A stretch of DNA of 64,000 nt from Porphyromonas gingivalis ATCC 33277 (lineage in GTDB: Bacteria; Bacteroidota; Bacteroidia; Bacteroidales; Porphyromonadaceae): assembly GCF_000010505.1 (NCBI RefSeq), contig NC_010729.1, positions 1,288,501 through 1,352,500 of the forward strand, in the 5' to 3' direction. A model generated the notes under the pieces. The model was not told the origin of the DNA. It searched no databases and worked only from the letters and a program-made list of their open reading frames with translations. A program made the translations under genes and the position numbers. Below, piece by piece: positions 34,545 to 62,696 of the stretch (positions are counted from its first letter, which is position 1; the number at the start of each line of letters is the position of its first letter).

Positions 34545-34673
34545 AGGCTCCGTGAAGTCCTCCGACCCGGAAATATCGGGCCGACGGACTTGATACTATA
34601 AACCCTTCCGACTTTATACTTAAAAACCCAATGGAGAGATCTGACAAATCCTTGGGTAGATCGAGAAAAAACT

Positions 34674-34761
34674 ACTAGTGGTTTCAGCAAAATCTACTAG
34701 TAGTTTCACTCGAAACCACTAGTAGTTTCGGGCAGATCTACTAGTGGATTTTTCTAAGGAC
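34674..34761. repeat. Array 1: four 22-bp tandem units with an ACTAGT core
   Basis: ACTAGT starts at 34674, 34696, 34718 and 34740, exactly 22 bp apart. Each unit has a conserved half (ACTAGTRGTTTC in the first three; the fourth reads ACTAGTGGATTT) and a variable 10-bp half. The third junction extends to an 18-bp near-palindrome (GAAACCACTAGTAGTTTC). One more degenerate copy (AAAAAACTACTAGTAC) lies beyond the downstream HU-related gene near 36730. Before the IS insertion at 34836, the array end was 74 bp from the HU-related start codon. Confidence 0.88.
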
Positions 34762-34835
34762 CAAAAAGAAACTTGCCGGAGGATAATTTGCCCCACCTCC
34801 GAGCAAGGATAACAATCGGGGCATACTACTATAAT

Positions 34836-45410: not shown

Positions 45411-45574
45411 ATCAAATCATTGAGACGTTAGGAACAGTATTTTCTTAAACTCTCTGCAAAGCTACGGAAATACGGCAAGCACCATATATTATTATGTCTA
45501 TTCATCAATTGATCAAACAGAGGGAGATTCTTACAGATATGATATAATGAGAAATTAGTCGGCTGATCTCTCGG

Positions 45575-55761: not shown

Positions 55762-55967
55762 ACTCCGCAGAGGAAAGCCCTTGTTCGTCTTTCGGGGAAA
55801 CAATCCTTTTTCCGATCGCCCCCCTCCATTTGCTCCATGACGGCTGTACGGAAAGTGAAAAACTACAGACGAAGCCGACCGATATTGCCATCCCTTTGCT
55901 TTCTCCTCTGTCGATAAAGTGAAATTCATTTCCTGAAAAAAACATGATAAATACGGAGAGAATAATA

Positions 55968-56275
55968 TAGTCTTACATGAGAGGATACTATGGTCTCACA
56001 TGAGAGGATACTATGGTCTCATACGAGAGGATACTATGGTCTCATATGAGAGGATACTATGGTCTCACATGAGAGGATACTATGGTCTCACATGAGAGGA
56101 TACTATGGTCTCATACGAGAGGATACTATGGTCTCACATGAGAGGATACTATGGTCTCATATGAGAGGATACTATGGTCTCATACGAGAGGATACTATGG
56201 TCTCACATGAGAGGATACTATGGTCTCATACGAGAGGATACTATGGTCTCATATGAGAGGATACTATCCTCTCTA
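55968..56275. repeat. Array 3: thirteen 23-bp tandem units
   Basis: GAGGATACTAT starts every 23 bp from 55981 to 56257 (13 starts). The units are almost identical apart from three bases between TCTCA and GAGA, which vary as CAT, TAC or TAT; TCTCATATGAGA is a perfect palindrome. The last unit runs into CCTCTCTATATAG instead of GGTCTCA. The open frame through the array (23-residue repeat) is a by-product of the period. No genes lie in 55762-56402; the rest of the gap holds only the clpB terminator. Confidence 0.95.
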
Positions 56276-59212: not shown

Positions 59213-59773
59213 ATGAAACTCAGAACATTAGTATTCGTGATCGTGGCTGCACTGGCAGTAGCGTTTAGCGCAGAAGCACAGAAGAAGACGGCGAAAAAAC
59301 CGCTTATCGTCTATTACTCTCACAGTGGAAATACCCAAGCAGTGGCCGAACACATCCAAAAGGCTACCGGAGGCACACTCTTCCGCATAGAACCGGAGCA
59401 AGCCTACCCCGAAGACTACAAAGCCCTCGTCCAACAAGCCAAAGAGGAGCTGAAGAAAGGCTTTCGTCCCAAACTCAAAAAGTCCGTCAAGAACATAGCC
59501 GACTACGACGTTGTCTACATAGGTTCGCCCAACTGGATCCACACCTTGGCTCCTGCCGTAATGAGCTTTCTGGAGCAGCACAACCTCAAAGGCAAGACCA
59601 TCATCCCCTTTGTCACACACGGCGGTGGTGGCATGGGCAAGTGTTTGGACGAAATGAAGCGACTGGCACCTCAAGCGACAGTCCTTGACGGCATCGTTAT
59701 CGACGGCAAGAAAGCCAAAGAATCGGCCGAAGAAGTCCGCAACAGCCTGAAAGCGATGGGACAAATCAAATAA
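59213..59773 (+). CDS. Flavodoxin with a signal peptide (exported)
   Basis: A 186-residue protein. Residues 1-21 form a signal peptide (MKLRTLVFVIVAALAVAFSAEAQ, cut after AEA or EAQ). The mature part is a flavodoxin: YYSHSGNTQAVAEHI is the FMN phosphate loop, YIGSPNWIHTLAPAVMSFLE the isoalloxazine-side loop, and FVTHGGGGMGKCLDEM the third FMN loop. It resembles the Flavodoxin_4 group. Flavodoxins are normally cytoplasmic, so an exported form suggests electron transfer in the periplasm; the partner is unknown. Own promoter match and terminator indicate a single-gene unit. Confidence 0.9.
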   Translation: MKLRTLVFVIVAALAVAFSAEAQKKTAKKPLIVYYSHSGNTQAVAEHIQKATGGTLFRIEPEQAYPEDYKALVQQAKEELKKGFRPKLKKSVKNIADYDVVYIGSPNWIHTLAPAVMSFLEQHNLKGKTIIPFVTHGGGGMGKCLDEMKRLAPQATVLDGIVIDGKKAKESAEEVRNSLKAMGQIK

Positions 59774-59875
59774 CGACAACTGTCCCTACTTCAGACCACT
59801 GAGGAATGATAGAGGCAAGCTTTCCCCTACAAATCAAACACAAGCCCCCCACCCTCCTCGGTTCTTTTCCCCCAC

Positions 59876-59905
59876 AAAAAGAGGCGCCATCGACGCCTCT
59901 CTTTT
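59876..59905 (+). terminator. Intrinsic terminator of the flavodoxin gene
   Basis: GAGGCG (59881-59886) pairs with CGCCTC (59894-59899) around a 7-nt loop, followed by TCTTTT. Confidence 0.75.
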
Positions 59906-60069
59906 ATACCCAATAACCACCAAATACGCACCAAAAAACTTTTCAACAACGAAGACAAGTTTGGAATCATTCTAAATAAACGACTGAAAAGAACTCCATT
60001 TTGACACTCAACAGATAAGCAAGCAAATATTTTCAGTCCGAAATCCGCTTTTCAGCAACCCATTCAACG

Positions 60070-60179
60070 ATCTATATATAAAACATTTTCAATTTATATA
60101 TAGATTGTTTTCGATTTATATACAAATCGTTTTCAATAAATATATAAATCAAAACTCGTTTATATATAAATCGCTCTCA
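60070..60179. repeat. Array 4: five AT-rich units with 22-bp period
   Basis: Related units begin at 60070, 60092, 60114, 60136 and 60158. Each combines a TATATATA-like half with a less regular half ending TTTTC, ACTC or CTCTC (for example ATTTATATACAAATCGTTTT). Similarity between units is lower than in arrays 1-3 but the period is exact. A hairpin follows 26 bp later and the dynamin-like gene 425 bp later. Confidence 0.75.
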
Positions 60180-60204
60180 CAAAAAGGCCATCTGTGATAT
60201 AAAT

Positions 60205-60245
60205 AAGGCGTCCGCCATGTCGCTGTCGAACATGGCGGACGCCTT
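60205..60245. terminator. Strong hairpin without T-run
   Basis: A 16-bp perfect stem (AAGGCGTCCGCCATGT with its complement) and a 9-nt loop. Neither strand has a following T-run, so it may be a structural element or repeat remnant rather than a terminator. Confidence 0.55.
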
Positions 60246-60547
60246 AACATATTTAGAGGGTTATCCCTCTACTACTCTCTTTTACACATCATCCACACGC
60301 CAATCCATTCTCCATGTACCATAACCTCACAATAAAAAACAGCCCACCGAACGAGCCAAACAGATCAGCATCACAAACAAGACGATCACACATACACTTC
60401 ATCTATTTATCATTGATTCATAAACACTTACACCTCATCAAGAAGTCTTTCTTCTCCGCCACAAATGTAGCAAAAAAACCTAACCGCAAAGAATCGAAAA
60501 CCACAAGAGCATAAAAACACACTCCGATCAACACAAAAAAAAAAATC

Positions 60548-60578
60548 TTCGTAAAACAAACTACCTGTTGTATCTTTG
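60548..60578 (+). promoter_or_regulatory. Promoter of the dynamin-like cassette
   Basis: TTCG at 60548-60551 and TATCTTTG at 60571-60578 are 19 bp apart, close to consensus. The first gene starts 26 bp downstream. Confidence 0.65.
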
Positions 60579-60603
60579 TGGATAAATTCACAAATTCAGT
60601 CCA

Positions 60604-61674
60604 ATGGAAAATCAATTTTTAAAGTATCGGGAAAAGGTCAATACGTGTTTAGACGCATACGATTCTGTACATAACCAATTAGAAAAGTCTTTCAAAGGTA
60701 AATCAGCATCTATTAAAGCCTTAGCTCATCCATTCAAAAAGGGGCACTTTACGTTAGCCATTATAGGAAAAATGAGTGCAGGTAAGTCCTCCTTTATCAA
60801 CGCTCTCCTAAAACGTCCGAATCTATTGGCAACAGGATATGGACAAACCACTTGTATGCTTACAGAGATAGTCCATAACGAAACAGAGGGATACAAAGTC
60901 TTTTTTGCGGATGGACACGAAAAATCTGTTAGCAGGACCGAATTACAAGAATACATGAAAGTACCTGACAAATATAGTGATCTACCGGTAAAACAGATTA
61001 ATAAATATATTATTGAAGGAGAAACCACTGACCAGATTTGGGTACGAAAGCAAGAATTACAAGAGATAGCAGCGAGAGGAGATAAAGACTTCAGCAAAAA
61101 GCTACTGGAGGAATACGTTATCACTCATCCCAAAGCTGTTATTCCAGATAGGATCTGTATTTCTGTACCCCTTTCTGAAGATCTTCATGGCTGGAAGATC
61201 ATCGATACTCCGGGTATTGACGCCGTAGGAGGTCTGGAAGACGAAACATTCGAGTTGCTCAACGGAAAAGATAAAAACGGGAATAATAAAGTTGATGCCA
61301 TTATCTTTATCAACAGTACAGAAAATCGAATTGAAGATAAAACGTTTTGCAACTTCGTAAAAGAGACCATAGATGGCTTTACAGACGACATCAAACGGCG
61401 CACCTTCATGATTCGCACGCATGGAGCTGATCGCCGATATCTTCGCTCGAAAGAATCGGAAGAAGAAGCATGCAAAAAACTTTTTGTGAATGGTCTGAAT
61501 TTGCCGGAAAGCTCCATATTTGTCGTTGATAGTCTCTGTTACATCTTATTAAAATATACGGAGGATGTATCCTTAGATCTTACAAATATTATTTCGAATA
61601 TGCCCGAAGATTGGCAGGAATATTGGGATAAAAATGAATGTAAAAACGCCTGGTACGAAGTAGGCGATTTATAG
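60604..61674 (+). CDS. Dynamin-like GTPase, N-terminal part (frame broken at the 3' end)
   Basis: A 356-codon frame with a dynamin-type GTPase domain: IIGKMSAGKSSFINALL (G1, residues 53-69), TTCMLTEI (G2 Thr82 or 83) and WKIIDTPGIDAVGG (G3, 201-204). A clear G4 (T/N-K-x-D) is not seen; IRTHGADRR may take its place. The frame stops at TAG (61672-61674) just after WYEVGDL. One more T in the TTT run at 61668-61670 would instead read GDFIEYAEKQLNNKK and continue without stop to 62696. So this is probably the first half of a single protein of about 696 residues, broken by a one-base deletion or a sequence error. Confidence 0.88.
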   Translation: MENQFLKYREKVNTCLDAYDSVHNQLEKSFKGKSASIKALAHPFKKGHFTLAIIGKMSAGKSSFINALLKRPNLLATGYGQTTCMLTEIVHNETEGYKVFFADGHEKSVSRTELQEYMKVPDKYSDLPVKQINKYIIEGETTDQIWVRKQELQEIAARGDKDFSKKLLEEYVITHPKAVIPDRICISVPLSEDLHGWKIIDTPGIDAVGGLEDETFELLNGKDKNGNNKVDAIIFINSTENRIEDKTFCNFVKETIDGFTDDIKRRTFMIRTHGADRRYLRSKESEEEACKKLFVNGLNLPESSIFVVDSLCYILLKYTEDVSLDLTNIISNMPEDWQEYWDKNECKNAWYEVGDL

Positions 61675-61826: not shown

Positions 61827-62696
61827 TTGAAAAAAATAAAAGATGACTTCAATGCATGGAAGCAACTTCTTAAAAAAAAACTCTCACCGCTCGAAGAAAA
61901 TCTCGACGAAGTAGAATTAAAACGTTGGTTAGAACAAGAAAAAGCGAACCTTGACAAGGCGAAGCAAGAGATGAATACCAAGTTCCCTGACTTTCAAAGA
62001 AAATTTGGACGCAACGGAATCAACCAATACTTTTCCAAAGTGCAGGAGCAAGTTGGATCGCTATCCGGGGGATTAAACGACATGAGAAATCTTATGCGCC
62101 GTTATTTGAGCGAAGCCGACGATTGTAAAAAGCAAATACTTGATGACGTATCCAAATCTTTGGACGAAACGCTCAAAGATGCATTAAAAAAATTCGATGT
62201 AGAAGTGTTCACTATCGACTTTGACAACATAGCTCGTATGGCAAAGGAAGATGCTACGCATACAGAAATTGTTGGTTATAAAAAGAAGATAATCAAAGAA
62301 GAAGGACCTATAGGTTGGCTAAAACGACTCCTCTCTTTTAAGAAGCCCAATAGCGGGAATTTGAGAAGGGGATACAAAGAAGTAGACGACACCTCCCGTC
62401 CAATCTGTAGGACAAAGATTGATGAGACAGAAGCAGCAAAGAAATTCCGAACTGCAGCTATCAAAATATTTACAGAATCACTCGACCAATTTAAAAAAGC
62501 TATCGGCACGGAAATAGACAACATAGGGAAAGAAGTAAAGATAGAATTAGATAGACAAATAGAAAAAGCAAAAACAAGCTATGAACAAGCTTGCACAGTC
62601 TATAAAGAGAAAGAAGAAGAAACGAGACAAAGGATCGAAGATCTGAAAGAAAAAATACAAACAATAGATCATGCGATCACAATAATCAACGGATAG
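61827..62696 (+). CDS. Dynamin-like GTPase, C-terminal helical part (continuation of the broken gene)
   Basis: The frame is open from at least 61674 (EYAEKQLNNKKQ) to 62696, about 340 residues, although the first usable start codon (TTG) is at 61827. The sequence is rich in Lys, Glu and Gln with long coiled-coil helices (for example LKRWLEQEKANLDKAKQEM and the C-terminal KEKEEETRQRIEDLKEKI), as in dynamin stalk and trunk regions. A short hydrophobic-amphipathic segment near GPIGWLKRLLSFKKP may be a membrane-contact paddle. Because no typical start precedes it, it is best read as the 3' half of the gene begun at 60604. Confidence 0.8.
   Translation: MKKIKDDFNAWKQLLKKKLSPLEENLDEVELKRWLEQEKANLDKAKQEMNTKFPDFQRKFGRNGINQYFSKVQEQVGSLSGGLNDMRNLMRRYLSEADDCKKQILDDVSKSLDETLKDALKKFDVEVFTIDFDNIARMAKEDATHTEIVGYKKKIIKEEGPIGWLKRLLSFKKPNSGNLRRGYKEVDDTSRPICRTKIDETEAAKKFRTAAIKIFTESLDQFKKAIGTEIDNIGKEVKIELDRQIEKAKTSYEQACTVYKEKEEETRQRIEDLKEKIQTIDHAITIING

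Follow-up and report, generated by a model that had tools for sequence, protein, structure and literature searches.

What is the AT-rich array of 22-bp repeats that stands beside a GC-rich hairpin just ahead of a dynamin-like gene in Porphyromonas gingivalis ATCC 33277, and does it belong with the cassette that follows? The window, i.e., the whole stretch of DNA analysed, comprises 64,000 nucleotides and corresponds to positions 1,288,501-1,352,500 of the single 2,354,886-base chromosome. Coordinates below are those of the window unless a locus is named, and the features of the copy studied are collected in Table 1.

The array and hairpin of the window

Both the array and the hairpin exceed chance. 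In Tandem Repeats Finder the 22-bp array extends from 60073 to 60150, with 3.5 copies, 78% matches and a score of 100, and inspection by eye together with a repeat search extends it to 60179, giving five 22-bp units. At lag 22, 60 of 88 array positions are identical. For comparison, 59780-60600 was shuffled 200 times with dinucleotides preserved, and the highest count at any lag from 15 to 30 was then 46.1 on average and 54 at most. The hairpin has perfectly complementary 17-bp arms (60204-60220 and 60230-60246). Between the upstream plus-strand ORF, flavodoxin-like by eye and ending at 59773, and the dynamin-like ORF, starting at 60604, no ORF of at least 80 aa was found. The first-pass annotation had thus correctly described the array, the hairpin and the gene-free stretch around them, but it drew the limits too narrowly, as the conserved unit covers ~560 bp (59922-60480). 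Its statement that this array is more diverged than the other three in the window is not confirmed: Tandem Repeats Finder gives 74% matches and 6% indels for the array at 34667-34745, which has diverged further than the present one with its 78%, and the remaining two reach 84% (at 45569) and 93% (at 55956).

Two other repeats in the window are of different kinds. A further 22-bp array at 34640-34770 resembles L102:12078-12165, L092:18556-18661 and, in P. gulae, L135:19601-19702, and arrays of this type form a second dispersed 22-bp family. A 23-bp array at 55956-56267 lies at the place beside clpB given for BrickBuilt_16 in the accessible text of its published description (PMC4596501).

Table 1. 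Features of the element copy in the window and of its immediate surroundings
Feature	Position	Strand	Basis or remark
Element copy	59922..60480	+ (= family orientation)	conservation shared with 31 further copies in P. gingivalis ATCC 33277 and 40 in P. gulae, some of them partial
Left block (AAATACGCACCAAAAAACTTTTCAACAACGAAG...TAAACG)	59922..59982	+	shares the highest conservation with the array
Dyad TTTGGAATCATTCTAAA inside the left block	59960..59976	.	sequence; family form about TTTRGAWTNATTCYAAA
Array, five 22-bp units	60066..60179	+	AT palindrome in the middle of each unit; consensus across the family CGATTTATATATAAATCG + TTTT
GC-rich hairpin, terminator-like on the - strand	60204..60246	.	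17-bp perfect arms, covariation
Right half, putative - strand transcript body	60247..60461	-	weak constraint, no conserved ORF
Second, weaker terminator-like site in the right half	60358-60340	-	terminator prediction
CAAATGTA = TACATTTG on the - strand, TAnnTTTG box directed into the element	60462..60469	-	kept in copies
GAATCGAAA, possible -33 region 21 nt from the box	60491..60499	-	GAATC[GC] motif
TATCTTTG, beyond the element, probably the -7 box of the dynamin-like gene	60571..60578	+	sequence; inferred
Hairpin resembling a terminator, belonging to the upstream gene and not to the element	59880..59900	+	terminator prediction

A dispersed modular element

Array and hairpin both belong, as modules, to a single copy of an intergenic element that is ~600 bp long and non-coding. 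A 261-base query around the array returned 65 matches in the P. gingivalis ATCC 33277 genome, merged to 32 places, with a few partial remnants elsewhere in that genome; a whole-unit profile applied to the fetched stretches matched all 32 of these loci and 40 places in P. gulae, the copy at L052 counted and partial copies included. The length is 573-650 bp in 63 of 66 near-complete copies. Placed side by side, the copies share one order, namely a left block ~145 bp upstream, the array, a short linker, a GC hairpin whose sequence varies from copy to copy, and a less conserved right half that ends in a conserved box. The dyad of the left block is frequently imperfect among copies, and the ORFs neighbouring them lie in any orientation. 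The window copy (~59,922-60,480) occupies most of the gap before the dynamin-like gene.

Counted with a loose motif, 54 of the 66 copies have five units, nine have six and three have four, so that unit number seems not to be strictly fixed (12/66 deviate). The phase is steadier. With a script that assumed five units and allowed spacings of 21-23, the best fit was 22 in 246 of 252 intervals and 23 in four among 63 P. gingivalis/P. gulae copies, and 22 in 73 of 80 intervals of P. loveana copies. Moreover, each of the five units bears its own signature across the 63 copies; given this and the preserved phase of 22, the array is not simply a slipping minisatellite. Length requirements set aside six of the 72 copies in the box counts, unit counts and folding, and nine of the 72 in the spacing fit and the test for terminal inverted repeats.

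Placement on the chromosome departs only weakly from randomness (n=32, mean 1.25 Mb, dnaA at 409 bp; Rayleigh p about 0.04), so that a role in chromosome layout gains no support from position, and a chromosome-terminus element was rejected on the weakness of this bias. Two copies that lie 0.9 Mb from each other and point in opposite directions, L088 and L107, agree in score and in the sequence next to them; they were probably carried by a duplicated segment.

Species distribution and the variant palindrome of P. loveana

When up to three mismatches are allowed, the left-block pattern has 30 sites in P. gingivalis ATCC 33277, 41 in P. gulae and 25 in P. loveana; it is missing from the 35 other family genomes searched. 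A narrower, exact form of the pattern, run over 84,980 species genomes in a set that may omit P. gingivalis ATCC 33277, gave 36 stretches, all in P. gulae DSM 15663 and P. loveana DSM 28520. In an order-wide draw of 393 genomes, to which P. gulae, P. loveana and the Porphyromonas genome G006 did not belong, a phased pair of TTTATRYATAAA occurs 58 times in P. gingivalis ATCC 33277 and one or two times in 19 others; control patterns gave matches elsewhere of like size, in one case 17. Phage and plasmid records held no match to the element. Viral contigs yielded no match to the array pattern and two to the left block, both of them bacterial DNA of locus L106. Array-type matches devoid of the left block also occur in G006, from which the left-block pattern is absent: 22-bp phased arrays of about four units by eye, built on another palindrome (TTTATGCATAAA), lie near 2940-3035 of L080 and near 3075-3150 of L081.

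The P. loveana copies that were fetched (20, plus L079) have the left block and an AT array in 22-bp phase. Their palindrome is of the type ATCTTTATAAAGAT, with the core TTATAA, as against CGATTTATATATAAATCG and the core TATATA in P. gingivalis and P. gulae, and the loose motif performed poorly as a unit counter in this species (five in 7/20). Their hairpins differ in sequence and retain near-full pairing in 20 of 20. The layout is therefore kept across copies and species although the palindrome differs in P. loveana.

Constraint and a possible nucleoprotein site

In 24 orthologous pairs of P. gingivalis and P. gulae copies (one of 25 pairs was dropped), identity is highest for the left block (95.4%), followed by the array (93.6%), the hairpin (92.4%) and the box (91.7%), and lower for the right half (87.0%), the spacer (85.4%) and the intergenic flank outside the element (85.3%) (array vs flank, p=1.7e-21; left block vs flank, p=1.0e-22). 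Being 92-95% identical where spacer and flank stand at 85%, the left block, array and hairpin are constrained, and the earlier suggestion that the array might be older or under other constraints is borne out at these 24 loci. Other causes could slow the mutation of an AT-rich array; the left block, which is less AT-rich, is likewise constrained. Judged by this pattern of divergence, old copies of the element appear to be kept in place by selection.

Covariation, scored with the relatedness of copies uncorrected, is strong only in the hairpin in both species groups (helix scores 1.1-1.65, 0.45 at the hairpin base and at most 0.36 in the rest). Since it is found in the hairpin and not in the array, the latter looks like a DNA-level signal, and what it presents, sites in helical phase under constraint, is what characterises a DNA-binding array of a nucleoid or regulatory protein. 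Nested hairpins obtained for the array by consensus folding were rejected, as covariation gave them no support, and a minus-strand helix suggested in the left block by the P. loveana fold is not claimed, its outer pairs not being kept by eye.

The reading we favour, with a confidence close to an even chance, is that the unit is a movable non-autonomous element whose array may serve as a phased DNA-protein site, with a two-way terminator to insulate it. A dimeric AT-binding protein would fill the five palindromes, two helical turns apart, on one face of the DNA, perhaps assisted by the dyad of the left block, and a nucleoprotein station would thus be built. Acting as a two-way terminator, the hairpin would shield the array from the transcription of neighbouring genes, and it may also stop transcription from the element's own inward promoter before the array is reached. 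The conservation of the inward box suggests that transcription is of importance, a feature not accounted for by a pure DNA station.

Movement and relation to known repeats

Some sites of the element are old, since P. loveana L079 stands at the place of P. gingivalis ATCC 33277 copy L041, and P. loveana L165 has its left neighbours at the same side and distance as L103 of P. gingivalis ATCC 33277. P. loveana L160 perhaps equals L084 of that strain, given a shared left neighbour (0.5 vs 1.3 kb), and P. loveana L162 shares a neighbour with a P. gulae copy on the opposite side. By their flanks, within the stretches fetched, most P. loveana copies are unmatched to copies of P. gingivalis ATCC 33277 or P. 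gulae. Neither relative has the element at one of the P. loveana sites, and the element of P. gulae L143 is part of a ~5-kb stretch without equivalent at the corresponding place in P. gingivalis ATCC 33277. A target-site duplication was sought at this one empty site, the flanks of which are too diverged to fix the edges. The terminal inverted repeats of a classical MITE were not detected in 63 copies (mean best inverted 12-mer match 8.13 vs 8.02 in shuffled sequence).

Gene order also changes at the edges. In the comparison of P. gingivalis with P. gulae, 54 edges could be tested, and 15 of them (9 right, 6 left) have a break within 150 bp, as against 25 breaks across 176 kb farther out. The sample consists of the 28 of 32 P. 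gingivalis ATCC 33277 copies with a usable P. gulae partner (L087, L088, L092 and L107 have none), two of 56 edges being dropped for too little flank. A break was defined as more than 1.2 kb unmatched, so that insertions are counted as well, and order resumes after 1.4-4.4 kb at L082, L103 and L110 (left) and at L101 (right). In ten right-edge cases homology stops 16-68 bp past the start of the box in eight and inside the element in two. Since breaks lie mostly between genes, intergenic DNA is the proper yardstick: on an assumed intergenic share of 15%, ~7-8 edge breaks would be expected, and the excess is estimated at ~2-fold. Taken together, the lack of detectable terminal inverted repeats and of a conserved gene, the mostly different sites occupied in P. 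loveana and the gene-order changes at the edges point to an element that would spread, or get displaced, rarely and with outside help.

The same observations can be read as those of a parasitic non-autonomous repeat of the BOX or BrickBuilt kind, devoid of host function, in which the array would be a transposase site or merely inherited. The many intergenic copies, the restriction of the left block to three species, the mostly unmatched P. loveana copies, the empty site and the breaks at the edges all agree with such a repeat; the constraint on old copies in place, the unit-specific signatures, unlike BrickBuilt, and the want of terminal inverted repeats and of a conserved ORF in the scanned part do not, and we regard this alternative as possible but rather doubtful.

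BrickBuilt is a P. gingivalis MITE with a 23-nt unit, a leader and a tail, present in 19 copies according to the accessible text (PMC4596501). The element resembles it in genome, intergenic position and leader-array-tail layout. The BrickBuilt unit of 23 nt is described there as repeated 1 to 22.8 times, with IS5-type TIRs, whereas the present element has a period of 22, an AT palindrome, usually five units, no TIR and, in P. loveana, a changed palindrome. Only one of 63 copies contained any of seven typed strings of IS5-type TIRs such as GAGACCTTTGCA. It is the copy at L110, where the left block is interrupted by ~1.3 kb of DNA beside an IS5/BrickBuilt-type end (L110:8382-9790). With BOX of Streptococcus pneumoniae, in the parts of the description available, the element shares its dispersed and modular nature and a tandem array between two different end modules (PMC3049150), and such end modules around a tandem array were indeed found here in many copies. 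In BOX the number of boxB modules varies and a similarity of TIRs to an IS has been proposed (PMC3049150); in the element four to six units were counted and a TIR was not found.

For P. gingivalis W83, 22-nucleotide tandem direct repeats have been reported, their exact locations unidentified according to the passage that cites the W83 genome report (PMC4596501). Species and period are the same, and these repeats may include arrays of the element; that passage describes no element, ends, hairpin or relatives (PMC4596501). Short repeats of 3 to 31 bp were left unannotated in another study, as its accessible text states (PMC5771137). Literature searches, whose reach did not extend to most subscription papers, found no description of the element, and we file it as a further case of dispersed modular intergenic repeats, apparently undescribed.

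Promoter-like and terminator-like motifs

Of the P. gingivalis/P. gulae copies, 62 of 66 carry the inward TAnnTTTG box, as do all 20 P. loveana copies examined; the same motif is reported as the -7 consensus for Flavobacterium in the part of the source consulted (PMC9723704). A GAATC[GC] motif lies within 40 nt of the box in 27 of the 62 box-bearing copies, in 24 of these at 20-22 nt. After the stem of the hairpin, the two strands carry 4.3 vs 5.5 T of 12 in the 48 of 63 P. gingivalis/P. gulae copies in which the hairpin was recovered, and 5.0 vs 5.5 of 12 in P. loveana (20/20), so they differ little in T content. A GC stem with T-rich tails on both sides is what an intrinsic two-way terminator has; the difference is that the hairpin here belongs to a larger conserved unit.

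Promoter-like and terminator-like motifs of this kind are features of a small-RNA gene, and the element may be imagined as a multicopy gene of this sort, ~270 nt long and read on the minus strand from a right-end promoter to the hairpin; the array would then be a regulatory part of it or lie next to it. The persistence of the box, the -33-like motif at 20-22 nt (24/62) and the terminator-like form of the hairpin on that strand speak for it. Apart from the hairpin, however, no conserved RNA body or structure was found: the putative body diverges almost like the flank (87.0% vs 85.3%), strong covariation is confined to the hairpin, no Rfam family was detected across the window or in four loci, no conserved ORF emerged from a scan of the right half for a shared start, and the weaker minus-strand terminator-like site in the right half comes earlier than the hairpin. 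We consider such a gene improbable. A transcript in PMC6231650 belongs, by the description in its accessible part, to another kind of locus. A coding function was also rejected: inspection of the left block suggests an open peptide and the array is crossed by some ORFs, yet no conserved ORF was found in the right half.

The dynamin-like cassette and the entry-point proposal

The first-pass annotation linked the array to the dynamin-like cassette. In P. gulae, the orthologous locus (92.8% identical where aligned) retains the left neighbour and the element, its array 97% identical over 107 nt, while the cassette is missing on the right, where other DNA is found that partly matches P. gingivalis ATCC 33277 at 1,165 and 1,443-1,448 kb. 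Homology between the two species ends at ~60477, ~16 bp past the start of the right-end box. Among 26 genomes of the genus, the dynamin-like protein occurs in one, P. gingivalis ATCC 33277. Since P. gulae has the orthologous array but no cassette, the two are not one unit: their coupling is unsupported, the finding named beforehand as speaking against it, an array unchanged where the cassette is absent, is what is seen at the species level, and the cassette is a later or independent neighbour of the element. The dynamin-like protein has a Pfam Dynamin_N domain and a weak LeoA/LeoBC similarity in PADLOC. The ORFs 60604-61674 and 61827-62696 match the LeoA model at positions 8-101 and 266-553; the gene seems split and may be broken in this strain.

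The related proposal that the array marks an entry point for foreign cassettes such as this one draws some weight from the edge breaks (15 of 54), from the break at the right edge of this very copy and from the Cas13b, Mrr, SIR2-type and type IIG genes adjoining some copies, but the excess of breaks over intergenic expectation is only about 2-fold, many variable flanks carry housekeeping-looking genes by eye, defence-model matches number at most 6 of 61 adjacent against at most 3 of 59 distant genes, and the array persists without the cassette, which makes it very unlikely. In the same PADLOC counts, for which the duplicate locus L107 was dropped (leaving 61 of 63 near and 59 of 61 far genes), no clear enrichment was seen, and a defence-island marker was likewise rejected. 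Single genes of this class stand beside or close to copies at L101, L102, L095, L085 and L079 (SIR2-type, Cas13b, Mrr, type IIG and SIR2-TPR genes).

Possible meaning of the element

It is tempting to extend the favoured reading of a phased DNA-protein site to a lineage-specific set of 25-41 nucleoprotein stations per chromosome, with a co-evolving protein that would read five 22-bp-phased palindromes, the palindrome having shifted while phase, hairpin and inward promoter were kept. This extension is speculative, and we give it a low probability. If true, the stations could serve, for instance, in the bridging of distant copies or in nucleoid anchoring, and the switch of palindrome at constant phase would offer a clean route to the reading protein. 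The sites of the element coincide with places of frequent gene-order change among related species. Some 30 unexplained intergenic sites, selectively kept, would be hidden regulatory or chromosome-structure parts of a much-studied oral bacterium.
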